DNA of 30,211 bases from a virus. The notes under the pieces are model-generated. The model saw nothing but the letters and a program-made list of their open reading frames with translations, had not been told where the DNA came from and searched no databases. This document shows, piece by piece, positions 1 through 30,211 of this stretch; the first letter of the stretch is position 1; the number at the start of each line of letters is the position of its first letter. Position numbers and translations under genes: made by a program. Location of the stretch: positions 1 through 30,211 of the IMG/VR virus record IMGVR_UViG_3300037481_000423. One strand, written 5' to 3'.

Positions 1-141
1 TGTACTTGTTTACCTCAGCTTTCATTCTGTTCTTCTTAGAGATTACTGGCAAGTCATAAACTTCTACTTCCATAGTCACCTTCCTCAGACTATATATTCA
101 GCCGTCAGAAAACTGAGGTAAACAAGTACAACAAACTTTGT
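1..141. repeat. Terminal redundancy of the circular assembly, with a short fold-back at the left tip
   Basis: Bases 16-141 are identical to 30086-30211 (126 bp), so the sequence closes into a 30,070-bp circle. Bases 1-15 do not continue the genome. Together with 16-18 they form the reverse complement of 113-130 (tgtacttgtttacctcag against ctgaggtaaacaagtaca). The right end stops exactly at the base equivalent to position 141, so the first 141 bases behave like one assembler k-mer with a chimeric fold-back tip. I therefore read the repeat as an assembly overlap and not as proven physical termini. Bases 16-73 duplicate the first codons of the RusA-like gene. Confidence 0.85.
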
Positions 142-146
142 ATAAT
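141..146 (+). promoter_or_regulatory. Perfect -10 box (TATAAT) on the plus strand
   Basis: TATAAT at 141-146 points away from all phage genes and towards the stem-loop cluster ending at 267. No good -35 box is visible 16-18 bp upstream. The overlapping minus-strand sequence has a weaker arrangement, TTGAGG, 18 bp, TATACA, facing the RusA-like gene, so the site could be a divergent promoter pair. Confidence 0.45.
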
Positions 147-152
147 AAGAAC

Positions 153-267
153 AGAAACAGCTCCTCAACTATCACTAGCTGAGGAGCAGAAGCAGCCCTT
201 AAAATCCTATCAAGTCCAACTGCTTTGTTTTGAAGCTCGGTGTATCTGGAACACCGAGCTTTTTTTT
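153..267 (+). ncRNA. Candidate small plus-strand RNA with three stem-loops
   Basis: Starting about 7 bases after the TATAAT box, the plus strand reads as roughly 115 nt with three successive hairpins. Stem 1 is 160-167/180-187 (GCTCCTCA with TGAGGAGC, 8 bp). Stem 2 is 190-195/220-225 (AAGCAG with CTGCTT, 6 bp). Stem 3 is the terminator 233-243/251-261 followed by Ts. It runs opposite to every gene and would be antisense to the leader of the early operon if that is transcribed from further upstream. The layout (about 110 nt, three stem-loops, T-run) recalls the antisense RNAs that control plasmid replication, but that is an analogy. Expression is inferred. Confidence 0.5.
233..267 (+). terminator. 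Rho-independent terminator, plus strand
   Basis: AAGCTCGGTGT (233-243) pairs perfectly with ACACCGAGCTT (251-261) around a 7-base loop, and the T-run 260-267 has eight Ts. On the minus strand no T-run follows, so the terminator is directed at a plus-strand transcript although all recognised genes are on the minus strand. Confidence 0.8.
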
Positions 268-640
268 GTCTTTATTTTTAAGAAGTCTGTTATAAATCGT
301 ATGATGAACCTATATAATCTTAAAGAGGAACAAAACCACAACAACCTGACTTCTAGTTATAATGAAACTTAAAGATGCTACCACCAGAGGATGCTAAAAA
401 CTTTGAGGTTAACAGGCTAGAAGTACCGTCCTTACGAATAGGTGTTTCCCTTGGAACGGAAACAGCTCAGGTAAAACTGAGGCAAAGGACTGATAGGCAA
501 CGGATGGAAGATGTGGTTCACCTGGAATAAATCAGCTGATGAAGGTAAGATAAGAAGCTGAGGAATACAGGGATACTGAGGCATAACTAACTGAAGCTCA
601 GTTCAAAAAAATTCTATAACCTATCCCTTGTTGTCTTAAA

Positions 641-678
641 AATTAGAACTAAATACTAATTCTAAATTAGTTCTAATT
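641..678. repeat. AT-rich 12-bp inverted repeat
   Basis: AATTAGAACTAA (641-652) and TTAGTTCTAATT (667-678) are perfect reverse complements. The 14-base spacer itself repeats the TAATTCT word. This could be a dimeric regulator site or an easily melted segment of an origin. No matching site was seen elsewhere. Confidence 0.6.
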
Positions 679-720
679 AATTCTGTAAAAAGATTCTGAG
701 GTAGATATATACTAGTAAGA

Positions 721-773
721 CAGCCTCTTAGATCTCAGCTTTTTGCCTTTTGTAACTGAGATCTAAGAGGCTG
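721..773 (-). terminator. Long 18-bp hairpin just after the last late gene
   Basis: CAGCCTCTTAGATCTCAG (721-738) pairs perfectly with 756-773 around a 17-base loop. It starts 27 bases after the stop of the holin-like gene on the minus strand, so it is placed to end or protect the 3' end of the late transcript. The bases after it on the minus strand are not a clean T-run. It may therefore be an RNA-stability or RNase III-type structure, or a DNA palindrome bound by a protein. Confidence 0.5.
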
Positions 774-799
774 ACTTTTGTCTAAGACTAACATCATCC

Positions 800-1081
800 T
801 CAGATCTTGTCTTTAATGATCTGAATATCTGTCTTAATGTCACTGACAGTGTCTTCTACTTTGTCCAGACGACGGCTCATCACTTCAACTGCATCGATAA
901 ATACTTTGCGGTTGGCTCTACCTTCTTTGATAAATTCGTCCATTACTTTCTGTTGACTTGGAAGCATGTGCTTGATCATGAACCAGCCAAATCCTACTAG
1001 ACAGAGAAGAGCTACTACAGTTGCTGCTGCTGGACCTGCTACAGCTGTCAATAACAGTTCAACTACTTCAGTGTCTTCCAT
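800..1081 (-). CDS. Small one-TM protein, candidate holin
   Basis: The predicted protein has 93 residues. A single hydrophobic segment spans about residues 9-36 (rich in Ala, Val, Leu and Gly), followed by a basic stretch and a charged amphipathic helix to the C terminus that looks like a coiled coil. It is the last gene of the late block, a usual place for lysis functions. The start at 1081 is chosen because AGGAG sits 6 bases upstream; the ATG at 1096 would place that AGGAG inside the reading frame. The size and single TM helix suit a holin or spanin-like membrane protein, but no family motif is recognised and no endolysin gene lies next to it. The role is inferred from position and topology. 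Confidence 0.6.
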   Translation of the reverse strand: MEDTEVVELLLTAVAGPAAATVVALLCLVGFGWFMIKHMLPSQQKVMDEFIKEGRANRKVFIDAVEVMSRRLDKVEDTVSDIKTDIQIIKDKI

Positions 1082-1082
1082 T

Positions 1083-1283
1083 TCAGTCTCCTTCAATTTC
1101 TACTGTATGATTGACAAGAACTTCTCCATCTTTCAGAAATGAACCACTTATAAAGTCCCATACCCAGGAATGTTCAGACCCTTGTAGTGTAGTAAATGGT
1201 GCTGATGCAGATGGGTCGTATCTCAACATCCATTCAGGTGTTGACAGGTCTTGAATATCAAAAATAGTTAGTGTGTATGTCAT
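1083..1283 (-). CDS. Hypothetical 66-residue protein
   Basis: The protein is acidic (pI clearly low from Asp/Glu against few Lys/Arg), with no membrane segment, signal peptide or cysteine. It starts with ATG 8 bases after the end of the 344-residue tail protein gene, with a weak AGGA upstream. It lies one base from the start of the holin candidate, whose ribosome binding site is inside its last codons, so the two are probably co-translated. I do not recognise the family. It could be a small virion component or an accessory lysis protein; nothing in the sequence decides. Confidence 0.65.
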   Translation of the reverse strand: MTYTLTIFDIQDLSTPEWMLRYDPSASAPFTTLQGSEHSWVWDFISGSFLKDGEVLVNHTVEIEGD

Positions 1284-1291
1284 CAGAAATC

Positions 1292-2326
1292 CTAAGGTGT
1301 ATTCATAAATGCTAAGACACGATTGACAGCACTTAGTAAAGAATCATCAGGGAACCAAGTAAAACCAATAGTGGTGGCAGGAGAACCACTTTGAATGGTA
1401 GTTCTTGTCTTCATGTTCTGTGAAACGAAGACACCACGCATTAAATATGGTGAGAAGAAAGTGGCGTATGAACCACCTGATGCATCACTAGCCCAGGCAA
1501 AGGGCTGAAAGATTGCACCACCAGATGTTGCTGCATAGTGTCTTTCAGCGTTATCAGTTTCTAGTGGCCCTGTTCCTCCAGGACGTGTGCTACCACTGCT
1601 ATAAACAAGTGACCTTGTTGCAACGCCAGTCCATCTCCAGAATCCTGCTCGACCTGTACCGTTAGTACCTGATATTAATGCTGAGGTAGCGGTACCTGTT
1701 ACAGTTCCACTTGACATACCTCTTCTTGTCAAGAAGCAAGGAACACCACATTCAGAATTTGCACCGTTTCTCTCTTCACAAGTAGCACTAGGCACATAGA
1801 CATGACCAAAGGCTGCAATGTTGTGTGTAGTTGCTGCCTGTCTGTCTATAATCCACATAACACCATCACCGGTGTAGAGCCAGAAAGCAGTCCAAGGTGA
1901 TGGGAAAGCATGCCAAACTTGGTTTGTACCGTCCTTGTAGTTTGTACCAACATAAGCGTCGTTTGCTGTCTCAATGTTTGCAGGTGTAAATGTGACACCT
2001 GCTCTACCACCATCAGGTACAAAACGCATAAGAATAAAAGAAGAGCTGTTGAACGGTGATTGACCATCAACTGCTGTCTTGTTAGTTGAAGTATTAATCC
2101 GCTCTACAAACAGAATTCTGTATTCTGAATAGAGGTTCGAACCAACAGGAGCACATTCAAAGTATTTGTAACCGGCAGTGGTGGTGCCTGTTGCTGTGAC
2201 AGACCATGTAGTTGATGATGTAACGGCTGCCTGAAGTGAATTGATTGCAGACAAACCACTTGTAGTTGGTGTTACAAGCTGTGCACTTGTCATCTGCCAT
2301 GTTACTGGTGAATAAAATTGTGGCAT
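1292..2326 (-). CDS. Probable tail fibre or receptor-binding structural protein (344 aa)
   Basis: The composition is rich in Ser, Thr, Gly, Ala and aromatic residues with few charges, typical of beta-structured virion surface proteins. Four cysteines cluster in the middle (CEERNGANSECGVPC), which is uncommon in phage fibres. It follows the coiled-coil fibre gene with a TAA stop two bases from its ATG, and a GGAGGA site lies about 10 bases upstream. The distal position in the late block, after all core virion genes, suggests a host-specificity or decoration protein. No enzyme motif or chaperone domain is visible. The function is inferred from composition and context. Confidence 0.65.
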   Translation of the reverse strand: MPQFYSPVTWQMTSAQLVTPTTSGLSAINSLQAAVTSSTTWSVTATGTTTAGYKYFECAPVGSNLYSEYRILFVERINTSTNKTAVDGQSPFNSSSFILMRFVPDGGRAGVTFTPANIETANDAYVGTNYKDGTNQVWHAFPSPWTAFWLYTGDGVMWIIDRQAATTHNIAAFGHVYVPSATCEERNGANSECGVPCFLTRRGMSSGTVTGTATSALISGTNGTGRAGFWRWTGVATRSLVYSSGSTRPGGTGPLETDNAERHYAATSGGAIFQPFAWASDASGGSYATFFSPYLMRGVFVSQNMKTRTTIQSGSPATTIGFTWFPDDSLLSAVNRVLAFMNTP

Positions 2327-2327
2327 C

Positions 2328-2825
2328 TTAAGGGTATCCTCCGCCTGTAGTTGTTATTGATTTTATGATTTCTTTCGTGTGTAATTTTGTGACTGAGATG
2401 ATTGGGTCATCATATGATGGTGGAACGTAGATGCCACCACCAACCTCAACAACAGAAGCAAAGATAAAACGTCCATATAGAGGACTGCTAAGTGCTGCAA
2501 TCTGTGCTTGTAGTACAGCCACTTGCGATTGTAGCGTAGCCACTTGCCCTTGCAGAATTAAGACTTGTGCCTGAAGAGAAGCGATTGTAGCTGCATCTGC
2601 CACAATCTGTGCCTGTGCTTGGGCCAGTGCTGCTTGAGCAGCTGCTAGTTGTGCTTGTAAAGAAGCAAGCTGCGCCTGAAGTACAGTTATCTGTTCAGTA
2701 TCTTCTGCTACAACTTGTGCAACTGTCTCATCTACTATACCTGACATTGGCCGACCACCAACAGCTGACTGAATGGATCGCAAACCTGTTTTTGATTTCA
2801 GATTTGAACGGCCTTGAATAGTCAT
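2328..2825 (-). CDS. Coiled-coil fibre shaft protein (165 aa)
   Basis: Residues about 42-113 form one long Ala/Gln/Leu-rich coiled coil with repeated LQAQLA and LQSQVA words, so the gene itself contains degenerate short repeats. The N terminus (about 40 residues) is basic and could be the virion anchor. The C-terminal 50 residues are a compact Gly/Pro-containing tip ending in GGGYP. Such a layout suits a trimeric tail-fibre shaft or a short spike. The start overlaps the stop of the upstream gene as TGATG, with AGGAG 6 bases upstream, showing translational coupling. The exact role is unknown. Confidence 0.7.
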   Translation of the reverse strand: MTIQGRSNLKSKTGLRSIQSAVGGRPMSGIVDETVAQVVAEDTEQITVLQAQLASLQAQLAAAQAALAQAQAQIVADAATIASLQAQVLILQGQVATLQSQVAVLQAQIAALSSPLYGRFIFASVVEVGGGIYVPPSYDDPIISVTKLHTKEIIKSITTTGGGYP

Positions 2826-3034
2826 CAGCTCTCCTTAGCGATGATTGCATCCAAGATAGCTCTGACAATAGGACGACAAACTGTCACTGAAGGTGATGTT
2901 GAAGATGCAGGGTCATAAGCAGAGGTAATTTGTGCGACTTCTTCGTCACTTAAAACAACTTGAATAGCCCAACCTTCTTCATAAATTTCAGGTAATGTTT
3001 GAAACATTCCTTGAAAGCAAGAATCTATTTGCAT
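2825..3034 (-). CDS. Hypothetical 69-residue protein in the fibre cluster
   Basis: A short acidic protein with two cysteines (residues 6 and 53) and no membrane segment. It has a good ribosome binding site (AGGAG, 7 bases before the ATG). It lies 10 bases after the 266-residue structural gene and is coupled by a TGATG overlap to the coiled-coil fibre gene that follows. It could be a small fibre chaperone or connector, because such proteins are often encoded next to fibres, but no motif supports this directly. Confidence 0.6.
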   Translation of the reverse strand: MQIDSCFQGMFQTLPEIYEEGWAIQVVLSDEEVAQITSAYDPASSTSPSVTVCRPIVRAILDAIIAKES

Positions 3035-3044
3035 AATAATCTCC

Positions 3045-3845
3045 TTAGCTCAGTTTCGCAATGTTGTATTTAATTCTTGTTACAAGTGCACCACCTGTGG
3101 TGGTAACAGTGCCGTTAGTCGACAACATAATCGCAAGAGCAAGCTGAGAAGATGCCGCACTTGCCCAGGTGTTACCATCACTTCGTGTGTTAACCTGAAC
3201 GGTTGTTGCTGAACGAGCAATGCATGAACCACCAGCCTTACCACAACTACCGATTGCACTACCACCGCTAAACAGCGTTGTTCCTACGCCTGACACAGCC
3301 GAAGCTACAGTTGCAGCAGCTCCAAAGTTATCAGCAACAATGCCTACACCAGGTGTACCAACAGTTGAAGTAAGAAAGTAAACACCTGATGGACGCATGT
3401 TTCCGATAACAGTGCTTGACGCGCTTTCAACTACACAAACTGCAACAAGATACTGACGTGATGCACCTACAGAGAAGTTATCGAAACGAACATCAAGACT
3501 GAAGGCATCACCTACAAGAACAGGACTTCCATCTGAATATGTGAGAGGTGCTCTCCATTTAGGGGACGTGAAGTTTGCACCTGAGATTAGTGAATATGTT
3601 TCGTTTGCTACACCAATTGTGTTTGTGTTGAAAGTATGCGTATCAGTGGCGGTGTCGTAACTGTAACTTGCAAGTGCTACGGCAGCTGTGTCAGAAAAGG
3701 TGTAGCCACCACCGTTAAGGTCACCAAGAGAACGTGTCGCCTGCAGCCCTCCACCACTTACAATGGTAGGCGCTCCGCTTGAATTGTTTGATGACGTATT
3801 GCTATTTCCAATGCCTGCAAAAACGTTGTTAGATGATTGAGACAT
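3045..3845 (-). CDS. Beta-rich virion protein (266 aa)
   Basis: Gly, Ser, Thr, Ala and Val dominate the sequence. The Asn/Ser-rich N terminus (residues 1-30) looks disordered, followed by alternating hydrophobic and polar residues typical of beta sandwiches. Two cysteines sit close together in a Gly/Ser loop (GSCGKAGGSC). It is separated by three bases from the upstream 141-residue gene and has an AGGA site before its ATG. It is probably a fibre, decoration or adhesin-like surface protein of the virion; the family is not recognised. Confidence 0.6.
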   Translation of the reverse strand: MSQSSNNVFAGIGNSNTSSNNSSGAPTIVSGGGLQATRSLGDLNGGGYTFSDTAAVALASYSYDTATDTHTFNTNTIGVANETYSLISGANFTSPKWRAPLTYSDGSPVLVGDAFSLDVRFDNFSVGASRQYLVAVCVVESASSTVIGNMRPSGVYFLTSTVGTPGVGIVADNFGAAATVASAVSGVGTTLFSGGSAIGSCGKAGGSCIARSATTVQVNTRSDGNTWASAASSQLALAIMLSTNGTVTTTGGALVTRIKYNIAKLS

Positions 3846-3848
3846 TGA

Positions 3849-4274
3849 TTATTCCTGTGTGAGAAGTTCGATGCGTCTTACTTGTGCAGTTCCTTGGTCA
3901 AGCTTCCAGAAAAGATAGAGGTTATCAACAACTGTACCTGTTACAGCATTGTGACTGTAAGCAAAGTCAATTGCTACAGTTACTGCACCTTCGGTTGCTG
4001 TAGTAACACCAAGAGATATTGTTGCTGAAACGTCACCAACCATAGTGTCATTACCTGTGGCGTCGCGTGTTAGGCGCATTGTAAGTGTTGGCGTTGCACT
4101 AAGACCTGCAAGCGTGTCAAGCTTTACGTACAGTGTTCTGAGCATAAAACGATTACCAGCGCTTCCACCAGTTAGTCCAGTTACGCTATGTGACCGTGCG
4201 GCTGCATAAGCATTTGTTGCTGCAATATTGACAGCATGAGCACTGTTATAAAAATACGATCCGACTTTTGCCAT
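3849..4274 (-). CDS. Small beta-rich virion protein (141 aa)
   Basis: The protein starts with MAKVGSYFYNSAHAVNIAAT and continues as Thr/Ala/Val-rich strands with few charges, suggesting a small beta-sandwich structural protein. It follows the giant internal protein gene after a 61-base gap and has a strong AGGAG site 7 bases before the ATG. It begins the run of small fibre-region genes. It could be a head or tail decoration subunit or an appendage base. No catalytic motif is seen. Confidence 0.6.
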   Translation of the reverse strand: MAKVGSYFYNSAHAVNIAATNAYAAARSHSVTGLTGGSAGNRFMLRTLYVKLDTLAGLSATPTLTMRLTRDATGNDTMVGDVSATISLGVTTATEGAVTVAIDFAYSHNAVTGTVVDNLYLFWKLDQGTAQVRRIELLTQE

Positions 4275-4335
4275 GTTTTTCTCCTTTCTCCGTCTTCAAC
4301 CGGGAGATGTTCTAAATATAACCTGAAATATGAGC

Positions 4336-7300
4336 TTAGTTTTCTACATTCGTTCCTTGCAGATCTTTAAGTTTGCGTAGTTCTGTTTGGATTTGTTTGT
4401 CGTACACTTGAATTTGTGTTGGAGGTTTGACAGCACGTTGTCTTAAGATCATGTATAGTGCTCCGTTAACGAAGCCTTTAAGACTTGGATCTGCCTGTAC
4501 ACCTTCAAATGCTGTATTCTCAGGGTAGTATCTTGCAAGGTAAGCGCCCTCAGGTGCCATACCAGCAGCAACCATCATGTTTGTGTAGTCGTTCAGTGTG
4601 CGGTTATGACCAGCTGCTGTCAAACCAAACATGAATGTGATGTACTTCTTCTTGCCTGCCTCAGTCTTAAACCTGTATTGCCTGCCTTCGAAAGTAGGTT
4701 CTCCTCTACGCATTTTCTCGATTGGCATTTCTTCGATTTCAAAGTTTGATTGCATTGAAGGCCAAAGACCAGTTGATTGTGCAAATGCTATTTGACGAGG
4801 TGAAACCATGTTACCTTTGTAGGCATCAACAATCTCAAGAATGAATCCCGTATAAGGTGTGTAAGCAGTTTCATTCATTAGACTTTCGAGAGATCCACCT
4901 AATGATTCGCCTCCTGATAGGAAGTAAGAGAAGTTTTCTGCAATATTGGCCATCCAGAATATCTGTCCCATAACAGGATCTCTGAGGTAAGTGTATGTTG
5001 CAGGTTTCTCACCGATAGTTTGCTGTTGCTCAACGAACAGAGATTCCAATTCAGCTTGACCAGGTGCATAAACACCTGAATACTTTGCCATGTCTCTGTG
5101 ATATCTTGCCAATCTTAGAATGTTCTCTGTACTTTCACCTCTTGTTAAGCCCTTAAGAATTGCAGTTGACATTGAGGCTGAGAAGCTGAGGAACATGAAA
5201 GGTGCCTTTAGCGACTTCAGCTGGTCAGGTAAAATTCTGTCAAGCAATCCGTAGTCAAGCAAAGTTTCACGTGCAATGGTTGCTGCCTCTTCAGCAGTAG
5301 CACCACGCCTCAGGGCTTCTTTAAACAGTGCTTGTCTAAACGCCATGTCAGTGTTTTGTGCAACAGTCATTGGAATCGAAGCAGTTCCTGAAGGTGCAAA
5401 GTCTTTAAATCTTCTTGCAGTAGCAGTCATAAGTTTGTTATCAGCACCTACCAATTGTGAAAGCTGCTTTAACTGTGCTATTGACTGAGGACGAAGTACA
5501 GTTTCAGCTTGACCTGCACCAACACGTGCCTGTGTGAAAAGTCTCCACAGTTCTGCGTTAGTTATTTGCTCACCACTTGGTGTAACAATAGCAACCTTGT
5601 TTGGAAAGCTGAGAGCAGGCTGATAAAGGTCAGAAGTATAACCACCAAATCTACCGAATTCACCGCCAACCAAACCAGTTGCTGTTTTCCCTGCCATCTT
5701 AGGAACGTTCTTGATAACAGCATCAACGTATTTAGGATTTGTAACAGCAGCAATTAGCGGTGTAGTAAAGACGTTCTCTGAAAGATATGTGACGTTAGGA
5801 ATAACCTTACCAGCAAGCATACCTTCAGCAATGTTCTTATGAACATAACCTGCGAATGCACCAATATCTCCCCAGATTCTTGACATAAGACCAGGTGACT
5901 GACGCTCGATTGTGCCAATCGTTTCAATAAGTCTTCCACTTCTTATTGGATCTCTACCAATTGTCTTTAGAGATTCTTTGATTACTTGAATATCTTTAGA
6001 CATCTGAACAGGCAAGTAAGCCAAAACACCAGGCTCTATTTCTTGAAGCTGTAGGTTTAGTCTTCTTAGAATCTCTGAGCCTGATGCAGATTCAAAGCCG
6101 TGTGTACCTCTTAGAATATCAATGTAGTAATCATTGACCGTGCTAACAAGCGCATCACCATTAGTTCTGATAATATCATCAGATATGCCTGCTTCTTTCA
6201 TTGCTCCTAAGATGTCATCACTACTAGAATATCCATTCAGTCTTGCTACCAGTCCTGAATCAATTGCTTTGATAATGTCTCTCTTAGGAAAGTCTTTGTT
6301 TGCAACATCAAATTTTGCAAGTGCACTGTTGTCGTAGATAGCATTTCTGTTTTTGCTAATGATATCAGCCAGCACTTTTTCTTGTGTCTTGTTAGTTGCA
6401 AGACTGAGGATAGTGTCAGGCAAAGAATCTGTGCGAACAGTTCTAGCACCATATGTTCCTTGTGCAACAACTTCTTGGTCTTTAATTTCAGGAAACCTTC
6501 TAACAATGTCATCTCTAATCTCTCTTGCACGTGAAAGGAAGAGAGAAGCATTTGTATTAGGATCAATGAATGACACCTTTGCGTATTCATTCACCATCTT
6601 ATCGATTGCTTTTCCTTGTGGTGTTTTTGTAGTGTAGTTAAACTGTGCTCTCATTACGTCTTTAAGTGCAGCGGTTGCCTGACCATTAGTCATAGGTGTA
6701 ACAACCTCAGATACAGTTGCAACACCTTGTGGCTGGTTAATCGCTTTGTTTAGAACTTGACCGTAGATCTCGTCAGCTTTGAATCCTTTTTTGCCAAGTG
6801 CAGATATTGTCTGAGAGAATTGTGCAGGGAAAGATTCCAACGCACCAGCATAACCTGAAATCATGTCAGCTACGTAGCGCTTAACAGGTGCTCTTGCAAA
6901 AGATGTCTTAGCAATTTTGTCAATAAGTTTTTGTCCTTCTTGACCAATCTGCTTTCCATACTGAAGAATAGAAGAACGAAGAACTTCAGGCTCAGTAGCA
7001 GATGTATAAGCTCTACCAGTTCCTTCAGCTTTGAATGCACCAAGTTTAAATTCTCTTGTTAGTGTTCCAATTCTGCTTTCAGATACTAGCGTATGCAAAG
7101 CCTTGTATTGTTCTGGAGACATTGTGTCACCGACTGACAAGCCTTTGAAAAGTTTTTCGTAGTATCTAAGTCTTTCATTTGGAGAATAAACAAGAGATTG
7201 TTTTAGAAGGTTCTTAACATTGATTGACTGATTAAGTTTAAATGTTGCTTCTTGACCAACCTCTGCAACATCAACATAGTTCTTCATGTTAGAAGCGATA

Positions 7301-9597
7301 TCATCAGCAACAAACTGAACTACATTCTTACCTTTAACAGGTGAAGGTGACTTAGCAAGTTTGGTTGACACAACAATGCTGGGTGTCAAGAATGTCCATT
7401 CACCCAAGATAGTGTTTGACAAACTTTCTTGCAAAGAAGTTTTAAGAGCTCTTCTTGGTGCATCAAGAATGTTAAGTGTTTGTGCCTGATTAATTGATGA
7501 TGCACCTCGTGGAATTCCTAGACCTTCTTTGATTGTTGTGTCGATTATTCTGTTTGCATCTCTTACAATCGCGTTGTTAGACTTAGCAACTTCTTTTAGA
7601 ACTGCATTGGCAAGAACCTTTGGCTGAACTTGACCTGACTTCATTGCAGTCATAATCTCAGGAGACAGGTCATCAAGCTTAGTCACAATCTCTTTGTATA
7701 GAGGATTTGTAAGTAAGTCATCAGGTCCTTTAGCAAGGATTCCAAGTACCGTGTATCTATCGCCAGCATGTGATGCTTCAATAGAAGAGACCCTGTTGCT
7801 ATCAATTAATGCATCAGTAAGTTTTGTTGACCTTCTTATTTCATCTGCTGTAGTTACACCTGCTTTCTTAGCAGCATCAGCAAGAGGACGCCACAATGTA
7901 TTGTCAGTAACAACTGTATTGTAAAGACCGATTGGAATCTGAAGAGGTGTCTCAAGAGCTTCACCTACTTTTGCAACATCACTGAACATCTCAGCAACAG
8001 AGCCAGGAACAATCTCTGAAAGTTTAAGTGCTTTGGCACCAGCACGTCCGGCACGAGCGCCTATTCCTGCAACTTTACCAGGCACTGAAAAGATGTTGAT
8101 AGGTAGAGCAACTTCAGACAGAATACCAACAGCTCTATATTTAGATTCATCTTCAGGTCTAACAGCAGATTGTGCAGCTAAGTCATCACCAAGTGAACGA
8201 GCAGTTGCAATCTCAACAGCAATCTCTCTCATTTGGTCTTCGAAAGGATTGTCTGAAGGTTTAGCGATGTATGACTTGCCCCATGCTTCTTCTTCTTTAC
8301 GACCTGTTCTTTCACGAGGAATAAGACCGAAGTCATCAGGATTAATTTTGGTGTCTGTGCCAGGTACAGCATCATACATTGCTGCATCGAGCAAAGGATT
8401 AAATACAAAGCGAGAGATACCAGCAAGGTCTCTGACAATTGTTAGTGGTAGTGATTCAACTACAGCTTCTGTTTTAGGTGTTAGTCCTAGTTTGTTCTTT
8501 AGATCTTTATAAACCTGAGGATCGTATTTATCTGATGCTAAGAATGATAGAGCCGCACCGGCACCTTGCTTAATTTTCTCATCAATCTGAGCACGACCAC
8601 TTGATGCCAAACCTGCAATTCCAAATGCAGCTTCATCTTCGTCACGCCCAATCTCATAAGCGTATTCATCAGGCAGTGATGTCTTAAGAAAGTCAAGATA
8701 CCTTTCTCTTGCTAAAGCATCGTAGTCTGAAGGTGTAGATGTGAAGCCGATTTCACGAACAGCATCTTGATAATAACTAACTTGTACTTCTTTGAGGATT
8801 TGTTTCTTGGCTTCTTCTTGACTAATACCTTTAGTGGATGCCAGTTCAACAGCATTTCTGTCTAGTTCAATTCTGTTCTGCTCAGACTGTTTACGTGCTT
8901 TTGTCTCTTCAGGTGATTCCATTTCCTGAGGTAGCAATGCACGACCAATTGCTTCAAATGCTCCCATCTGCTCTACTTGACTTGGATCTTTAGCAATTGT
9001 CTGAGGTGTTGCAACAGGAGCAGAAGGAGCAAATTCTGCAGTTCTTGGCATACGAGCAGGTGCAACAACTTGCATTGCACGCTTCTCAGCATAGTCTGCT
9101 TTGGCCACTTCTTCTTCAAGTCGCTTGTTAAACTGAGGATCGAGAACACCAAGACCTTCAGTCTGCAATTCGCCAGTAATCTGCAAAATAACGTCTTGCT
9201 TTGTTGGAATGCCTTGCTTAACAAACTGTGCTGTCTGTGCTTCAAGTGCTTTAAATTCTTCAGCAGCAATGTCAGCTTCAGTAGGCTTTGGCGCAAATTC
9301 ACCTACACCTAAACGAGCAGTAAGCTCAGTTGGCGTTGGTGGTTTAAATGTAGGTTCTTCTACAACAGGCTGAACAACAGCCTTAACAGCAGGTTCAGCA
9401 GGCGGTTCAAGAGATAGACCGGTCAGGTCAAGTTGTTCAGGTATTGCTGATACTTGTGGCTGAGCACTAACAGAAATGCCCATATCTTTGACGTAGTTAT
9501 CAAAGAATTTATCAGCCTCAGCTTCGCCTAGCGTTGCTTTAATCTGCTCATAAGTTGGTTGTTTACGAGCAGGCAGAATTGAAATATCACGAGCCAT
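4336..9597 (-). CDS. Giant internal virion / DNA-ejection protein (1753 aa)
   Basis: At 1753 residues this is the largest gene and takes up about a sixth of the genome. The first 230 residues are Pro/Ala/Glu-rich and look flexible. Most of the rest is helical and charged, with two more hydrophobic Gly/Ala-rich stretches near residues 495-520 and 1460-1485 that could contact membrane. It follows two other helical proteins in the order of T7 gp14, gp15 and gp16, the proteins ejected into the host cell with the DNA, and I call it the gp16 counterpart on position, size and composition. T7 gp16 carries an N-terminal lytic transglycosylase domain; I see no such catalytic motif here. AGGAG lies 6 bases before the ATG. 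Confidence 0.65.
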   Translation of the reverse strand: MARDISILPARKQPTYEQIKATLGEAEADKFFDNYVKDMGISVSAQPQVSAIPEQLDLTGLSLEPPAEPAVKAVVQPVVEEPTFKPPTPTELTARLGVGEFAPKPTEADIAAEEFKALEAQTAQFVKQGIPTKQDVILQITGELQTEGLGVLDPQFNKRLEEEVAKADYAEKRAMQVVAPARMPRTAEFAPSAPVATPQTIAKDPSQVEQMGAFEAIGRALLPQEMESPEETKARKQSEQNRIELDRNAVELASTKGISQEEAKKQILKEVQVSYYQDAVREIGFTSTPSDYDALARERYLDFLKTSLPDEYAYEIGRDEDEAAFGIAGLASSGRAQIDEKIKQGAGAALSFLASDKYDPQVYKDLKNKLGLTPKTEAVVESLPLTIVRDLAGISRFVFNPLLDAAMYDAVPGTDTKINPDDFGLIPRERTGRKEEEAWGKSYIAKPSDNPFEDQMREIAVEIATARSLGDDLAAQSAVRPEDESKYRAVGILSEVALPINIFSVPGKVAGIGARAGRAGAKALKLSEIVPGSVAEMFSDVAKVGEALETPLQIPIGLYNTVVTDNTLWRPLADAAKKAGVTTADEIRRSTKLTDALIDSNRVSSIEASHAGDRYTVLGILAKGPDDLLTNPLYKEIVTKLDDLSPEIMTAMKSGQVQPKVLANAVLKEVAKSNNAIVRDANRIIDTTIKEGLGIPRGASSINQAQTLNILDAPRRALKTSLQESLSNTILGEWTFLTPSIVVSTKLAKSPSPVKGKNVVQFVADDIASNMKNYVDVAEVGQEATFKLNQSINVKNLLKQSLVYSPNERLRYYEKLFKGLSVGDTMSPEQYKALHTLVSESRIGTLTREFKLGAFKAEGTGRAYTSATEPEVLRSSILQYGKQIGQEGQKLIDKIAKTSFARAPVKRYVADMISGYAGALESFPAQFSQTISALGKKGFKADEIYGQVLNKAINQPQGVATVSEVVTPMTNGQATAALKDVMRAQFNYTTKTPQGKAIDKMVNEYAKVSFIDPNTNASLFLSRAREIRDDIVRRFPEIKDQEVVAQGTYGARTVRTDSLPDTILSLATNKTQEKVLADIISKNRNAIYDNSALAKFDVANKDFPKRDIIKAIDSGLVARLNGYSSSDDILGAMKEAGISDDIIRTNGDALVSTVNDYYIDILRGTHGFESASGSEILRRLNLQLQEIEPGVLAYLPVQMSKDIQVIKESLKTIGRDPIRSGRLIETIGTIERQSPGLMSRIWGDIGAFAGYVHKNIAEGMLAGKVIPNVTYLSENVFTTPLIAAVTNPKYVDAVIKNVPKMAGKTATGLVGGEFGRFGGYTSDLYQPALSFPNKVAIVTPSGEQITNAELWRLFTQARVGAGQAETVLRPQSIAQLKQLSQLVGADNKLMTATARRFKDFAPSGTASIPMTVAQNTDMAFRQALFKEALRRGATAEEAATIARETLLDYGLLDRILPDQLKSLKAPFMFLSFSASMSTAILKGLTRGESTENILRLARYHRDMAKYSGVYAPGQAELESLFVEQQQTIGEKPATYTYLRDPVMGQIFWMANIAENFSYFLSGGESLGGSLESLMNETAYTPYTGFILEIVDAYKGNMVSPRQIAFAQSTGLWPSMQSNFEIEEMPIEKMRRGEPTFEGRQYRFKTEAGKKKYITFMFGLTAAGHNRTLNDYTNMMVAAGMAPEGAYLARYYPENTAFEGVQADPSLKGFVNGALYMILRQRAVKPPTQIQVYDKQIQTELRKLKDLQGTNVEN

Positions 9598-9623
9598 GGA
9601 TTCTCCTGTTTAAATCTTAACGA

Positions 9624-11405
9624 TTAGATATCAGACTTAAATAGGTCTTCGATTGTCAACTGTTGAAGGCGCTTTAAGGCTGTGTCTGTAGAAGGTTTAG
9701 TTGCTACAGGAGCTTTTGAACTTACACGTCTTGGAGGAACATCAAATCCTGATGGGAATTCTTCCTGTCCTTGTGCAAGCTTCAGACGCTCAGCTTCAAG
9801 CATTTCATTAAGCGGTTTAGAATATACTGGGAATAGTGCTCGACGCAGGTCTGCACGTTCTGCTGCAAAGATTGCAGGATCGTACTGAGGTTTGTTGTAT
9901 TCAGTGCGTAGCGTATCCATTCCAGCCATTAGGTCGTCATACTTTTGCTCTTGCTCAGGTGTGAAGTTTGCAATGCCAATTTTGTCAAGTGCATCTTTCT
10001 GCTTAACAAGATCAACCATTCTGTCAGTGATTGCTTGACGTACACCAATATCTCTTTCAACTTCTGCAAGACGCTCTTCTCTACCGCCGCCTTTCAAACG
10101 ACCAGGACCTGGCAGCTTGTCTGCATCACCAAGTCTCTGAGGCTCAACAAGTGCAGGAACAGGCTCAGGAAGAATTTCTGATGGACCGGTCCTTTCATCA
10201 GAGCCTTCCATCTGAATCTTATGGAAAGCAATAAGGAATTCGTCGCGCTTCTTCTTGTCGCCATCAGAAAATTTAACAGCCATGTCAATTGCTGCCTGAC
10301 GACGCTCAGCCTTTGAAACATCAAGAGGCACGTAGTTGTTGATGAACAGTTGAGCAGCTGTTACAGCACTTGGATTAAGTTTGATTTTGCCTTGTTTTGC
10401 AGCCTGAATCGCATCATAGTGAAGAAGCTTTTCCTTGTCAGTTCCAAGTATATCACGAGCAAATTGCTCTTTCATAAATCCAGGTGATTCAAAGCCATAC
10501 TTCTCAGCAGCTCTTTTTCTAACATCAGCTTCTGCAGGCTGAAATGGTACAGGTGGTTTTGACAGTTCTTCTCTGATTTTATCCAGTTGTGCTTTTTCAG
10601 GTGCAAGAGCCGCATCTATTTCTGCTTGTTTAGCAGCAATTGCTTCAGGACTACCTTCTTTCTTTAGCGCTTCAAGTTCTGCTAGCAATTGTCTAAGAGC
10701 CGAAACACCATAAGCGCCGCCTTCTTGGGCAAGTAGCGCATCTTCTTCTTTCTTTATCAAAATATCCTGAGGTGTGTCAAGCAGTGCATCACCACTAACA
10801 CCACCGATATTAACTGCATCAAGTCCAAACTGTGCAGTGATGCTTTGCTCAAGCGCGTCTTTATCAGCAGTAGTTAGTCGGTCCCAAGTCTTGTCAGTCT
10901 TTAGCTGTTTCCAAAGTTGCTGAGCTGCTGATGCAGCGCTTCTGGTTCCACCTTTTATAGACGCAGCCACATCAGTAACTTGACCTTCAATCAACGCTTT
11001 TACGCCAGCAGGATCGACAATCAAACCGCCTGAAGTTGCAAGTGTGTTTGCAGATTCAGCCAGCTTAGTTTTTGCAGCCTGAGGAACTTCTAGCTGACCT
11101 TGAAGCCCTTCTCTTATTTTAAGACGAGAATCTCTTCCCTCGTTTTGTGATGATATTATCGCTTGATTAAGTGCTCTTCCTTCTTTTATAAGCTCTAGTT
11201 TGTTAATTCCTTCTTCTTCACCTTTTCTTGCTTTGTTGATAGCATCTTGCAAAACCTTTTCTCTTTCACGCAATGCTTCTCTGTATTCAGCATCCATCTT
11301 TTTTTGAAGAATAAGTTCCTGATATGCTTCATCTCTAAACTTAGCATAGCGTTCTTCATGTGACTGAAGGTAAGTAGTAAAGTATTGTAGTCCGTTTGAA
11401 GCCAT
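9624..11405 (-). CDS. Internal virion protein, gp15-like (593 aa)
   Basis: This is an almost wholly helical, highly charged protein with long coiled-coil stretches (about residues 15-75 and 220-290) and no cysteine-rich or enzyme motif. The ATG at 11405 is chosen because AGGAG lies 8 bases upstream; a TTG two codons earlier also exists. The start follows the TGA of the gp14-like gene by two bases. The middle position in a trio of internal proteins and its size between the 196- and 1753-residue partners match the T7 gp15 role as a tube-forming ejection protein. The assignment is by context and composition; sequence similarity was not tested. Confidence 0.6.
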   Translation of the reverse strand: MASNGLQYFTTYLQSHEERYAKFRDEAYQELILQKKMDAEYREALREREKVLQDAINKARKGEEEGINKLELIKEGRALNQAIISSQNEGRDSRLKIREGLQGQLEVPQAAKTKLAESANTLATSGGLIVDPAGVKALIEGQVTDVAASIKGGTRSAASAAQQLWKQLKTDKTWDRLTTADKDALEQSITAQFGLDAVNIGGVSGDALLDTPQDILIKKEEDALLAQEGGAYGVSALRQLLAELEALKKEGSPEAIAAKQAEIDAALAPEKAQLDKIREELSKPPVPFQPAEADVRKRAAEKYGFESPGFMKEQFARDILGTDKEKLLHYDAIQAAKQGKIKLNPSAVTAAQLFINNYVPLDVSKAERRQAAIDMAVKFSDGDKKKRDEFLIAFHKIQMEGSDERTGPSEILPEPVPALVEPQRLGDADKLPGPGRLKGGGREERLAEVERDIGVRQAITDRMVDLVKQKDALDKIGIANFTPEQEQKYDDLMAGMDTLRTEYNKPQYDPAIFAAERADLRRALFPVYSKPLNEMLEAERLKLAQGQEEFPSGFDVPPRRVSSKAPVATKPSTDTALKRLQQLTIEDLFKSDI

Positions 11406-11407
11406 TA

Positions 11408-11998
11408 TCAATCTCCTAAGAAGTCGTCTTCGTATGCACTTTGAACTGCACCTTTTCCACGCCCGGAAGGAACGGTACCAGTAAGCTCTTTAAATCTGCG
11501 TAGTTCTAGTCCTGCACCAAATGCCTGAGCGCCAACATCAGCAACACCTCCAATAATAGCAGCAGCTCTCTTAGCTTTTGCTTCGTCTTGTGCTGATGAC
11601 AACTTTCTCATTTCAGCTTCTTGCTGCAATTGTAGTTCAACATCAGCCTGCGTTAATTTAGCCTGAGCCTCAGCAAGACGGCGTTGCTCTGCTTCCTGTG
11701 CATTTAGCATTGCCTGAAAGTTTTGACCTGCACCACCGCCAGTTGTAGCAGTAAGTGCTCTTTGATCAAGCATTTGCTGAGATGCAAGTGCCTGTGCTGG
11801 TGCAAGAAGCTGACGTCTTAGGACATCTTCTTGTGCAGATGTGAAGCCAAGTGTGCCCATAGCAGCACGTCTTTCAAGCTCTGCTAGCCTCTCTTTCTCA
11901 GACTTTCTAAAGCCTGCACCGGCTTCAACAATGCTAGGAATAGTTGATAAGGCTGATGCTGCAGTTCCAATTATTGCTGATGTTGGTATAATTGCCAT
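11408..11998 (-). CDS. Internal virion protein, gp14-like (196 aa)
   Basis: Residues 1-30 are hydrophobic and Ala/Ile/Ser-rich, followed by a Gln/Ala/Glu helix region (about 35-145), a second Ala/Gly-rich segment (AAIIGGVADVGAQAFGAG) and an acidic tail. Podoviral gp14-type proteins of about 200 residues have the same make-up and insert in the outer membrane during ejection. It sits immediately before the two larger internal proteins, as in T7-like phages. Its stop nearly overlaps the start of the next gene. The call rests on size, composition and order. Confidence 0.65.
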   Translation of the reverse strand: MAIIPTSAIIGTAASALSTIPSIVEAGAGFRKSEKERLAELERRAAMGTLGFTSAQEDVLRRQLLAPAQALASQQMLDQRALTATTGGGAGQNFQAMLNAQEAEQRRLAEAQAKLTQADVELQLQQEAEMRKLSSAQDEAKAKRAAAIIGGVADVGAQAFGAGLELRRFKELTGTVPSGRGKGAVQSAYEDDFLGD

Positions 11999-12019
11999 GT
12001 TTCCTCTCCTCTAATTATG

Positions 12020-12682
12020 TTAGTCGTAGTGAGCTTCGATTGTGAAACTAAGAGCCTTCAGAAAGAAAGCCTGTGAGCCACAATGTCCAACTAAATAGAT
12101 TGTGTGCTCTCCAGCTGCAAGGTTACTGACAACAAAATGTCCGCCATATGAACGACGCTTTTCCCAACCAGGAATAGCTCCACCAACGAAGCTAGCTCCC
12201 CAGTCGTTCTCTTCTTCAAATACGAATTTTGTTGATGAATAGAAGTTATCATCAACTGCGATGAATATCTGAGCTGCAGAAGTGCTGAATGGAGCCTGTG
12301 TTTCTGATTCATATCCTTTAACAGCCATGTCAAAACGGATGACAACATCTCCTGTTTGCTTCATGTAGAATGTTGTGCCTGTTTTTGGAATTGACTTAGG
12401 TGACACAGTCAAGTTTCCAAAGTATTTTGTAAGAGCACCAACAAGCATTGATGGAAGTTCTTGTGCACCAATCTCATGACCACTTGTCATGTCGTAGTCA
12501 ATGTTTGTAGACAAGTATTCGCCATTCATAATATGCTGCATATCAATGGCTGCAGTAGCACTGATATCAGCAGCGATTATTCCACCATTGATCTGCCTTT
12601 TAATAGCGTCATTGTTTGCTTCAACTTGAGCAGCACTAATTGTTGTGCCGTTAGTAAATACGTTTGGAATAGCTAGTGTCAT
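12020..12682 (-). CDS. Tail appendage protein with N-terminal anchor motif (220 aa)
   Basis: The N terminus reads IPNVFTNGTTISAAQVEANN and continues to NGGIIAADIS. This pattern (F.NGT.ISA.QVN.N..A....NG.I....I) is common at the virion-attachment end of phage tail-fibre proteins. The remaining 170 residues are beta-rich with aromatic residues and a Gly-rich loop, suggesting a compact receptor-binding or decoration head. The GAGG site is 5 bases before the ATG. It is the last of three adjacent genes whose N termini look related, so these may occupy equivalent positions on the tail. Confidence 0.7.
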   Translation of the reverse strand: MTLAIPNVFTNGTTISAAQVEANNDAIKRQINGGIIAADISATAAIDMQHIMNGEYLSTNIDYDMTSGHEIGAQELPSMLVGALTKYFGNLTVSPKSIPKTGTTFYMKQTGDVVIRFDMAVKGYESETQAPFSTSAAQIFIAVDDNFYSSTKFVFEEENDWGASFVGGAIPGWEKRRSYGGHFVVSNLAAGEHTIYLVGHCGSQAFFLKALSFTIEAHYD

Positions 12683-12689
12683 CTTAACC

Positions 12690-13709
12690 TCATGCCATTG
12701 TGTTTCTGTAGACGATTACTTGTAAGTATGCTCTTTCAAATCCAAAGGTACCGCTAACACCGTATCGAGGCACGCTTGGATCACAGTCTTGGTCTTCAAG
12801 AAACAGAGCAGGACCAGCAGGTGTAGCACCGTCTGATGTCATTCTCCATGCTCCACTAAAGAAGAGCTGACTTCCAAAGAGCGTGTAGTTTCCGTTAGAT
12901 CTGAGCATGTATTCACCTTGACAAGCAAGTTCGTTGAAAAGATATGTGCTAATTGCGTATGAAGCAGGAGCATTGCCAGCTGTCATAATAAATTCAGGAA
13001 TCATTGTTGCATGGTCAAATCGTCCTCCAAAACAAGGTACTGCACCACCAATGCCAGGTAGTACAGCAGGAGGATCAACAAGAGCAACACCGCTGATAAC
13101 AGAAAGTGGAGCAAAGTTTGCATCAATGAGGGCGTTACTTGTGATATTTACTTTAGGATAAACAAGAGCACACCATTCACCTACACCACTTCCGTTTGCT
13201 CCGCCAAGAGGACGAGCACCTGTAAAGATTAGTTGTGAAGAATGGTCGGCTGCATTTGAACCATTGGCTGTTGTAATGTTGAAGTGATTAATCCACCAAC
13301 GAAAGCGAACTACGTCACCAGGACCGAGGGCAAGACCGGTTGCACCAAATGAAATCTTTGTTCCTTGACCAGCAGCTGTATTTGTAGCTCCAGTTGCATC
13401 ATGGTTAATCGGCCATTCAGGTGTGTTGATCACTTTACCACCAAATGGTGAAGCCTCAGTATAAAATGGATAATGTGCACCGGCTGCTGGCACGGCAGGG
13501 AATGTGAGATTATATCCATTCTCTTGCTTCAGTGCTGATATAACCATGCTTTTGCCACCAACATTTCTCGTATCAACACCTTCAACGCGGATATTTTCTT
13601 TGTTGATAAGGTTGGCACCAGTCTGTACCGCAGTGTAATTTGTGTTTACTGCAGGTGCTGAGGTGAGGGGATTGTTTGGATAAAAGTCGGTTGTTCTGAC
13701 TTCGGACAT
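12690..13709 (-). CDS. Tail appendage / receptor-binding candidate (339 aa)
   Basis: The N terminus (PAVNTNYTAVQTGANLINKE, then NIRVEGVDTRN) resembles the anchor region of the two neighbouring genes. The rest is Gly/Ala/Asn/Phe-rich, with few charges and several aromatic residues, as in beta-rich virion surface proteins. The ATG overlaps the TAA stop of the upstream gene (TAATG) and AGGAG lies about 7 bases before it. No enzyme motif such as a depolymerase fold repeat is obvious. The role is inferred from the shared N terminus and the position next to the nozzle gene. Confidence 0.65.
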   Translation of the reverse strand: MSEVRTTDFYPNNPLTSAPAVNTNYTAVQTGANLINKENIRVEGVDTRNVGGKSMVISALKQENGYNLTFPAVPAAGAHYPFYTEASPFGGKVINTPEWPINHDATGATNTAAGQGTKISFGATGLALGPGDVVRFRWWINHFNITTANGSNAADHSSQLIFTGARPLGGANGSGVGEWCALVYPKVNITSNALIDANFAPLSVISGVALVDPPAVLPGIGGAVPCFGGRFDHATMIPEFIMTAGNAPASYAISTYLFNELACQGEYMLRSNGNYTLFGSQLFFSGAWRMTSDGATPAGPALFLEDQDCDPSVPRYGVSGTFGFERAYLQVIVYRNTMA

Positions 13710-14395
13710 TATCTTCTCCTATTGAATGCGTGAACTTGACCACCAACGAATGACAGGATAACCTGTGTGTCAGCATCATCTTTTTGTGGTCTAAGCTCTA
13801 CGCCTAGTTCAATTAGACCATCACCTGCAGGAACTGGGAATGTAGCTGTGTGTGTTCTTGTCAGCCACATCTGATATTCCCAGTCTCCTGTATAGACAAC
13901 TACGCCATTATACCTAATGAATATCCTAAAGTTCTTTCTTGCTACTGTTGAAGCTGCTCCTGAAGCATAAAAGTATGTCCAGTATTTTGGAATAAACGAT
14001 GACTGGGTGTATGTGATTGTCATCATTCCTTCTTCTACATCTACAACCTGCAGGGACTTCCAGTAAGAAATACCACCGCCACCGTTTACCTTGTCTGAAT
14101 CATAACGAAAGCCAATGATGAAGTTGTTCTTTGGATTGTTTGCACCTGCAGCAAAGATTGCGTCACCATCAAGAAATGCTTTGTCAGGAACGTTGTTACC
14201 AAAGATATAGTGTCGACCGCTATTGTAGACAGCAGCCTGTGACCTGTCATTAAGCTGAACGCCACCAACAGGCAAGTTCTCGCGGTCGATACCACCATTC
14301 AGTGTGTCAACATAAGTGTCCAATGCCACATCGAATTCACGTGACTGAACAATGTTCTTGTCTTCTATTGTTCTAGCTGAGAATGTATAAGCCAT
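13709..14395 (-). CDS. Tail appendage protein, first of three related genes (228 aa)
   Basis: Residues 1-50 contain the segment YVDTLNGGIDRENLPVGGVQ, which resembles NGGI/NLINKENI segments in the two following genes and suggests a common virion-anchoring domain. The C-terminal 150 residues are rich in Tyr, Phe, Trp, Val and Gly and look like a beta sandwich. Start and stop overlap both neighbours as TAATG, so it is translated with the nozzle gene upstream and the 339-residue gene downstream. It may be a fibre adaptor or a short fibre. Confidence 0.65.
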   Translation of the reverse strand: MAYTFSARTIEDKNIVQSREFDVALDTYVDTLNGGIDRENLPVGGVQLNDRSQAAVYNSGRHYIFGNNVPDKAFLDGDAIFAAGANNPKNNFIIGFRYDSDKVNGGGGISYWKSLQVVDVEEGMMTITYTQSSFIPKYWTYFYASGAASTVARKNFRIFIRYNGVVVYTGDWEYQMWLTRTHTATFPVPAGDGLIELGVELRPQKDDADTQVILSFVGGQVHAFNRRR

Positions 14396-26304: not shown

Positions 26305-26343
26305 TCATCCTCCTGTGGAGGTTTCACATTCGTTACACTTCAT
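26305..26343 (-). CDS. Leader peptide of the late operon (12 aa)
   Basis: ATG at 26343-26341 follows GGAGG by 6 bases and opens a frame encoding MKCNECETSTGG, ending in TGA at 26307-26305. Its last codons contain the AGGAGG used by the next gene. The message can fold twice: TACACT/AGTGTA with the leader ATG in the loop, and CCTCC-ACA-GGAGG, which hides the next ribosome binding site. Translation of the leader would open the second hairpin. The peptide has a CxxC pair, which may be chance. Confidence 0.5.
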   Translation of the reverse strand: MKCNECETSTGG

Positions 26344-26357
26344 AGTGTACCTCCAAT

Positions 26358-26368
26358 GATACATATTA
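26358..26368 (-). promoter_or_regulatory. Promoter-like element TAATATGTATC before the late operon
   Basis: The 11 bases TAATATGTATC occur on the minus strand 15-25 bases before the leader ATG, and again in the same setting at 28726-28736. TTTTGG precedes both at slightly different distance. This could be a -10 region or a phage-specific activator site for late transcription; no good -35 is visible. Confidence 0.45.
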
Positions 26369-26571
26369 CACCAAAATTGCACTTTTTCTTTCAGCCAAAA
26401 AAAATTTTTCACATAATCACATTTTTATCATTAGTCATCAAGTGATCATCATTTTTATCATAGCATCATAGAGAGAACGTCAGTTTAAAAAATGCTCGGG
26501 AATCTCTCGGGCCTATTTCACCATACTGACAACTTGTACAATTTGGGCCCCCCATAGTCGTATACGCGCTG

Positions 26572-26615
26572 ACCGACCACTACACACCGACCCCGCTCCA
26601 CCGCATGCACCGACC
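26572..26615 (+). repeat. Three ACCGACC repeats, with inverted copies at the far side
   Basis: ACCGACC is at 26572-26578, 26586-26592 and 26609-26615. The reverse complement GGTCGGT occurs twice, overlapping, at 27293-27303, so the repeat region is bracketed by inverted copies. Confidence 0.55.
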
Positions 26616-26804
26616 GCCATCCCCATGTACACGCCACACGGCTCCCTTTCCCCATCCACGGTAGAGGGCGTACACCATGGTCCCTTCATCTAGAGACAGA
26701 GAGACAGACATCCATAGACAGACACCGTGACAAGGGGACATTCATAGTCTATCATAAGCCGAAGTCAGGAGGTTTACAAGTCTATAGAGACAGACAGATA
26801 CAGA

Positions 26805-26823
26805 GCGCGCCGGTCAGCGCGCC
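26805..26823. repeat. GC palindrome 1
   Basis: GCGCGC (26805-26810) and GCGCGC (26817-26822) flank CGGTCA. This is an imperfect member of a set of three; the other two have perfect 8-bp arms. Confidence 0.7.
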
Positions 26824-26842
26824 TCATAGCCTCAGGCGGTGG

Positions 26843-26864
26843 TCATCATTATCAGAGGTCATCA
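26843..26864 (+). repeat. 22-bp direct repeat, copy 1
   Basis: Bases 26843-26864 are identical to 27045-27066. The unit contains TTATCA and AGAGGTCATCA. Both copies lie near a GC palindrome and a GA tract, so a larger module seems to be duplicated. Confidence 0.8.
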
Positions 26865-26962
26865 TATAATAGAGAGAGAGGGAGAGAGACATTGAGATGG
26901 TCACGAAGGGATGAGACATTATATAATCATCTTTTCATATTTACAAGAGGAGAGGGGGAAGA

Positions 26963-26980
26963 GCGCGCCGGACGGCGCGC
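26963..26980. repeat. GC palindrome 2
   Basis: GCGCGCCG and CGGCGCGC are perfect 8-bp arms around the dinucleotide GA. It lies 158 bases from the first copy. Confidence 0.8.
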
Positions 26981-27044
26981 CCCCAGTCTCTCTAACCAAA
27001 TATAGAAAGATAGTCATATAAGATAGAGAGAGAGACGCCGACTA

Positions 27045-27066
27045 TCATCATTATCAGAGGTCATCA
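27045..27066 (+). repeat. 22-bp direct repeat, copy 2
   Basis: Identical to 26843-26864. It opens the dense TTATCA array that runs to 27255. Confidence 0.8.
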
Positions 27067-27255
27067 AGTATTATCATAATCATCAGACATCATCAATCAT
27101 TATCAATCATTATCAAAATTATCAGAGACTGAGAGAGACTGTGAGCGCGCCGACCGGCGCGCCCTAAGAGACCGAGACCTTATCATCATTATCATCATGT
27201 CTTATCATAATCATCAATCATCAAATGTACAAGTCGACCGGCAAGTTCCTTATCA
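27051..27255 (+). repeat. TTATCA iteron-like array
   Basis: TTATCA occurs nine times here (27051, 27071, 27100, 27110, 27119, 27180, 27189, 27202, 27250), with three more at 26425, 26455 and 26849. All have the same orientation, and neighbouring copies are often 9-10 bases apart, about one helical turn. Such same-strand arrays are typical of iterons or initiator-binding sites. The word resembles the left half of a DnaA box (TTATCCACA), but no full box is seen. Confidence 0.65.
27145..27162. repeat. GC palindrome 3
   Basis: GCGCGCCG and CGGCGCGC are perfect 8-bp arms around the dinucleotide AC, 182 bases from copy 2. As in copies 1 and 2, GA precedes the left arm. Confidence 0.8.
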
Positions 27256-27391
27256 TCGATAAATCTGTAAATCGTTTTGTTGTAAATCTGAGGGTCGGTC
27301 GGTAGGCCAGGCAAGTGACACTGATCGAGAGATTAATTTACTGTGACTGACTGACTGAGAGACTGAGACACTGAGACTGAGAGACTGTGCC

Positions 27392-28778: not shown

Positions 28779-28814
28779 AAAAAAAAGACGCCCCCACACC
28801 ATTGTGAGAGCGCC
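28779..28814 (-). terminator. Rho-independent terminator of the first early unit
   Basis: On the minus strand a 12-bp stem with three G-T wobbles (28803-28814 with 28787-28798) and a 4-base loop is followed directly by eight Ts (28786-28779). It lies 60 bases after the stop of the 59-residue gene and separates the nuclease unit from the small-protein unit. Confidence 0.8.
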
Positions 28815-29738: not shown

Positions 29739-30143
29739 TTAGTTAAGGGCACAAGGTGGTAGGAAAGGAAACGTCGTGACTTCTGAGGTAGGTGTAATGT
29801 CTTTGGTGACAGTGATCTTCAGACACCACCGCTTACCATAAACCTTACGCATCTGAAGAGAAGTAATTTGACTATCGTCTTGGTAGACCAGTTCATTCAT
29901 CACATCACAGACTGTGTCACTAAAATTCTGAAGGTCTCTCTTTCTCTTGTCAGGAACAGTCACTTCTATTTTGACAGCTACATCTCCACTTTCTATCATC
30001 TCACCTCGCCACTGAGACTGAATAGCATCGAACAAGTCTCTCTCAAAAGAGACAACGACTTGGTCTTTGTAAATTCTACCTCTAGCAGCTTTCATTCTGT
30101 TCTTCTTAGAGATTACTGGCAAGTCATAAACTTCTACTTCCAT
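29739..30143 (-). CDS. rusA: RusA-like Holliday junction resolvase, altered active site (134 aa)
   Basis: The segment KRKRDLQNFSDTVCDVMNEL followed by VYQDDSQITSLQMRK aligns with the core of RusA (RDxDNxxK...DALN...DDsqI....K). RusA enzymes cut Holliday junctions as dimers. In E. coli RusA the residues Asp70, Asp72, Asp91 and Lys76 are needed. Here the first Asp and the later Asp-Asp pair are kept, but the second Asp is Gln and the Lys position is Asp. The ATG at 30143 is preferred over a GTG two codons earlier; GAGGAAGG is just upstream. It is the first early gene. Confidence 0.8.
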   Translation of the reverse strand: MEVEVYDLPVISKKNRMKAARGRIYKDQVVVSFERDLFDAIQSQWRGEMIESGDVAVKIEVTVPDKRKRDLQNFSDTVCDVMNELVYQDDSQITSLQMRKVYGKRWCLKITVTKDITPTSEVTTFPFLPPCALN

Positions 30144-30211
30144 AGTCACCTTCCTCAGACTATATATTCAGCCGTCAGAAAACTGAGGTAAACAAGTACA
30201 ACAAACTTTGT

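Follow-up and report, generated by a model that had tools for sequence, protein, structure and literature searches.

Plasmid copy-control antisense RNAs, such as ColE1 RNA I and R1 CopA, are about 100 nt long, carry several stem-loops and end in a terminator. Small antisense RNAs are also described in phages, for example lambda OOP, P22 sar and the c4 RNA of P1 and P7 (reviewed in PMC12197685), while the putRNA of phage HK022 acts in cis on the transcription of the downstream early genes (PMC9378689). The GOLLD and ROOL RNAs, which are far larger, are often located near tRNA genes (PMC12286853).

The window analyzed here, i.e., the whole stretch of 30,211 bases of the IMG/VR virus record IMGVR_UViG_3300037481_000423, contains a predicted plus-strand small RNA (sRNA) of about 115 nt (153..267) and, some 75 nt beyond it on the same strand, a conserved RNA of about 210 nt (344-554, perhaps to 676). 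Like OOP, sar and c4, the sRNA would be a short phage RNA, and it resembles OOP in its dedicated promoter and terminator, its position opposite the main genes and its place in an early control region, but it covers no opposing target gene, and no sequence or family relation to these RNAs was found. Its size, several stem-loops and terminator are similar to those of RNA I and CopA, whereas its neighbour is RusA, and not a replication primer or the mRNA of an initiator. The likeness to putRNA lies in a folded RNA of the early region in a phage using the host RNA polymerase (PMC9378689), although here the plus strand has no gene downstream, and both size and structure differ. The conserved RNA, in turn, is comparable to GOLLD and ROOL as a conserved structured RNA carried by phages, of unknown function and found by covariation (PMC12286853), but the window has no tRNA genes and Rfam finds neither family. 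Judged from the covariation in its alignment, the segment at 344-554 is a new structured RNA family with no Rfam match, and it is a stronger result than the sRNA.

The virus is small and uncultured, of the short-tailed phage type, and its host is probably a bacterium, for which the hairpin-plus-U terminators found at the sRNA and at 28816-28785 would speak. Every credible gene lies on the minus strand, so that the strand of the sRNA is free of genes, as the preliminary description had stated. A RusA-like Holliday-junction resolvase (29739..30149, minus strand; Pfam PF05866, E 9e-15) heads the leftward early operon, and the other recognized genes encode a weakly matched endonuclease-VII-like protein, a terminase, an SU10-type portal and a major head protein. 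Most of the remaining window proteins that were searched matched no family with a known function, no polymerase gene was recognized among those searched, and no replication initiator or primer was seen. A search of bacterial and archaeal genomes with the large terminase subunit (TerL) returned one relative, of 46% identity and in a Euryarchaeota MAG, which is too weak for naming the host; this 29-kb contig (L142, WTIT01000131.1) also carries further window-like genes, and may represent either a binning error or a hint of the host.

The two ends of the window share a 126-nt repeat (16-141 = 30086-30211), and positions 1-15 repeat 116-130 in reverse complement. As a de Bruijn graph with k = 127 has vertices of 126 nt, the repeat is read as the sign of a circular assembly, in which the true circle would probably be of about 30,070 bp, with bases 1-15 as an assembly fold-back, i.e., a 15-nt chimeric tip, and the inverted repeat 1-23/108-130 is probably an artefact. 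The alternative is a genuine 126-bp terminal repeat instead of a circular closure.

The sRNA would be transcribed from a sigma-70-type promoter at 119..146 on the plus strand (TAAACA 119-124, 16 nt, TATAAT 141-146), which scores 10/12 in a consensus scan of 1-15000, where seven other sites equal it and none of these has a perfect -10. There are eight perfect TATAAT hexamers on the plus strand, three of them within 141-363. This promoter spans the closure of the circular-looking assembly (141 is the end of the repeat) and is intact in the left copy. With its start placed 7 nt past the -10 and its end at the T run, the plus-strand transcript would comprise stem-loop 1 (160..187, GCTCCTCA/TGAGGAGC, 8 bp plus inner pairs), which in the minus-strand direction also looks like a weak terminator, stem 2 (190-195/220-225, AAGCAG/CTGCTT, 6 bp, with a 24-nt loop) and an intrinsic terminator (233-261, AAGCTCGGTGT-ATCTGGA-ACACCGAGCTT) of 11 Watson-Crick pairs followed by T8 at 260-267, a T run that serves plus-strand transcripts only. 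The TATAAT, the stems of 8, 6 and 11 bp and the eight Ts of the preliminary description were thus all confirmed by sequence inspection and folding.

The folding energy of 153-270 is -40.9 kcal/mol (z = -4.59), a value that none of 200 shuffles equalled. When a strict terminator was defined by at least 10 Watson-Crick pairs, at least 5 of them G-C, and a T run, the sRNA terminator had no counterpart on the two strands of the window, nor did one arise in 300 first-order Markov shuffles of the genome. The interval is considered noncoding because it holds no useful ORF. From this anatomy we infer transcription, and a plus-strand RNA of about 115 nt that ends near 267 is likely if the host is bacterial; the terminated RNA gene that had been proposed is well supported by the same anatomy. 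No Rfam 15 family reached the gathering threshold in the window, L138, L146 or L004, and the matches at loose E-values were chance matches only. A 17-base pattern taken from the sRNA matched 50 contigs, with little similarity beyond the pattern itself. The hexamer CTGAGG, with 6 copies in 101-716 against 0.3 expected for the word, was considered as an iteron and dropped, because shuffles often give 6 copies of some word and CTGAGG is common throughout the genome.

The TerL search returned three close relatives (71-75% amino acid identity) and many at about 50%, and L004 is the only close relative that covers the control region. There, RusA occupies the equivalent place, two ORFs lie opposite the RusA strand and the sRNA is absent; this region was rejected as a homologue, as the two ORFs belong to no known family and the conserved RNA has no match in it. 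Nested inverted repeats (GGCAGCGGGAA..., GGGAAGTGGCA..., CCGAGG...) were also observed in L004 at 5544-5615 on the minus strand, just upstream of an opposite-strand ORF of about 224 aa, and their stems would be mutually exclusive or pseudoknotted. A RusA query in IMG/VR found no relatives, while a search with the protein of the late end found L138, L139 and L140. The L138 group contains the conserved RNA, and both the sRNA and the terminator preceding the conserved RNA are absent from it. Neither L004 nor the L138/L144/L146 group therefore has the sRNA in its comparable region, contrary to the expectation that relatives would keep the stems, and the sRNA is probably a real gene kept in none of the comparable relatives.

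The conserved RNA came from a blastn search of the junction against L138, L139 and L140, in which positions 347-553 matched L138 10594-10810 with 67% identity (E 1e-4), an unexpected result well downstream of the sRNA. When an invariant stretch was used as a search pattern, L144, L145 (identical to L144) and L146 were recovered, while L143 had the pattern alone. The RNA is thus present in four other IMG/VR contigs, as three distinct sequences of about 67% nucleotide identity, its plus-strand core at 344..554 corresponding to L138 10590-10811, L144 5122-5347 and L146 617-835, in addition to L145. A second pattern (TTATAATGA...) gave no new members, its extra matches being coding-looking and scoring poorly with the covariance model.

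Six plus-strand helices make up the core. P1 (349-358/415-424, 10 bp, with 2 compensatory pairs) encloses P2 (368-374/401-407) and P3 (377-382/389-394) in a unit at 349..424, and P4 (426-432 with 495-497 and 500-503, also with 2 compensatory pairs) encloses, at 426..503, P5 (443-449/458-464, 1 compensatory pair), P6 (466-470/477-481, 3 compensatory pairs) and the invariant, unpaired CAAAGGA at 483-489. The paired changes include ACUUCUAG/CUAGAAGU vs. ACUUUUAA/UUAAAAGU, GUUUCC/GGAAAC vs. GUCUCC/GGAGAC, and CUCAG/CUGAG vs. UUAAA/UUUAA. A more weakly conserved 3' part (617..676, plus strand) consists of TAACCTAT at 617-624, which is conserved, and an A/T-rich hairpin at 643-676 that is found at the matching position in L138, L144 and L146. 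Upstream, the motif TTTGTATAA(T/A) occurs in both lineages, and a second perfect TATAAT (313..318, plus strand), with a poor -35, may be the RNA's own promoter.

The structure was drawn by hand from four sequences (six helices, 46 pairs) and tested on the same alignment; 9 of the 46 pairs are changed on both sides and 97.2% of the cells are paired, as in none of 500 shuffles, and slid versions of the structure used as controls gave 0-1 double changes. Only two independent lineages carry the RNA, as the members of the L138 group count as one. The hits of a covariance model at E-values of 1e-49 or better were confined to L145 and the members from which it was built, with nothing else credible among 80 loci and 17 whole records, and single-sequence folds were weakly or no better than shuffled ones. 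A 51-aa ORF at 375-530 was rejected as coding, as the members differ by indels of 1, 2 and 5 nt, which break any frame. The prediction of stems kept by compensatory change thus failed for the sRNA, for which it was made, and holds for this separate plus-strand RNA outside the original finding. Between the two RNAs there is no complementary word of at least 8 nt, and the direct word GAAACAGCTC that they have in common may be due to chance.

The layout is divergent in both lineages, the early genes running leftward on one side and the RNA rightward on the opposite side. The conserved RNA of the L138 group lies between rightward early genes and a leftward unit made up of a gene of 62-66 aa, a GIY-YIG-like gene and a homologue of the 164-aa protein of the window, whose gene is likewise divergent from the conserved RNA. 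Past the conserved RNA, the plus strand of the window has only the end of the convergent late operon, and the RNA is therefore not the leader of a conserved downstream gene.

The reading that we tentatively prefer is that of a small short-tailed-type phage whose divergent control region contains a joint rightward noncoding unit in a regulatory role. The host RNA polymerase would transcribe the early operon leftward, with RusA first, and in the rightward direction would start at the TATAAT of 141-146 and stop at the terminator at 267, which would yield a stable noncoding RNA, either a terminated leader or an sRNA. The sRNA and the conserved RNA would then form one rightward unit, the latter being produced by partial readthrough of the terminator or from the second promoter, and the conserved RNA may act in trans as a regulator, or as a scaffold, on the host RNA polymerase, the ribosome or a phage protein. 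The two RNAs need not form one unit, however, because in the L138 group the conserved RNA occurs alone.

Given this, the sRNA may instead be an independent RNA that regulates host or phage transcripts in trans and has no connection with the conserved RNA, as such phage sRNAs are known (PMC12197685) and it has its own promoter and strong terminator, three stems and no ORF; its retention by no relative makes this reading a doubtful one. It is improbable that the RNA has no role, being either a short spurious transcript or the by-product of a terminator that shields the late operon from rightward transcription, given that two extra stems between promoter and terminator, and a folding z of -4.6, exceed what an insulator needs, even if the location between divergent and convergent units and the one-way T run are those expected of one. 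Still less probable is that 344-554 works in cis as a minus-strand leader that regulates the early operon, instead of as a plus-strand RNA. On its minus strand, the element does lie upstream of the first leftward gene in both lineages, but the plus strand is favoured because its G-U pairs add 13 paired cells (176 of 181 vs. 163 on the minus strand), and the leftward gene of the L138 group has a TATAAT-like site within about 35 nt of its start, which would leave the element upstream of that transcript.

The least probable reading of all is the one in the preliminary description, in which the sRNA would be a copy-control antisense RNA of the ColE1 RNA I, R1 CopA or lambda OOP kind, opposing the leader of the early operon. 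Its size, three stems and terminator fit the type, as does the failure to recognize a polymerase gene among the searched proteins. The first opposing gene, however, encodes a RusA-type Holliday-junction nuclease, neither a replication initiator nor a primer, and the sRNA is not retained by the relatives. The target transcript is itself putative, as there is no consensus minus-strand promoter between 100 and 600 (the nearest is at 639-611), and as the RusA ATG is at 74, a promoter directly upstream of it would give no overlap with the sRNA. No replication-gene leader or primer complementary to the sRNA was found, the minus-strand promoters being those of the consensus scan only. The original interpretation is thus upheld in part.

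Small proteins similar to sigma-70 region 4 are encoded in or close to the divergent early region of L139, L140, L155 and L156, and a tblastn search with one of these found relatives in about 20 loci, some of them copies of one record, and none in the window, L138, L144, L145, L146 or L004. This is only suggestive of an exclusion between the sigma-like gene and the RNA, as the contigs other than the window are fragments. No polymerase or transcription regulator was recognized in the phages with the conserved RNA. It is very unlikely that the structured RNA has replaced a phage sigma-like transcription factor acting on the host RNA polymerase, with the sRNA added as a switch in one line. While the sRNA by itself would be one further phage small RNA, a conserved RNA in the place that a sigma-like gene takes in relatives offers a testable case of the control of a phage early switch by RNA.

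Finally, other features of the window were observed. Where the late operon ends (717-777), a 22-bp inverted repeat (95%) is possibly a two-way terminator. The region at 26320-27390, about 1.1 kb with no credible genes, has the palindrome-like AGCGCGCCGG..GCGCGCC three times, as well as TCATCATTATCA repeats, and is a candidate origin or packaging site. A second strong terminator-like hairpin is located inside the early operon (28785-28816, minus strand), and its TCTCACAATGGTGTGGGG core is kept at the equivalent place in L004, which suggests a conserved mid-operon terminator or attenuator.
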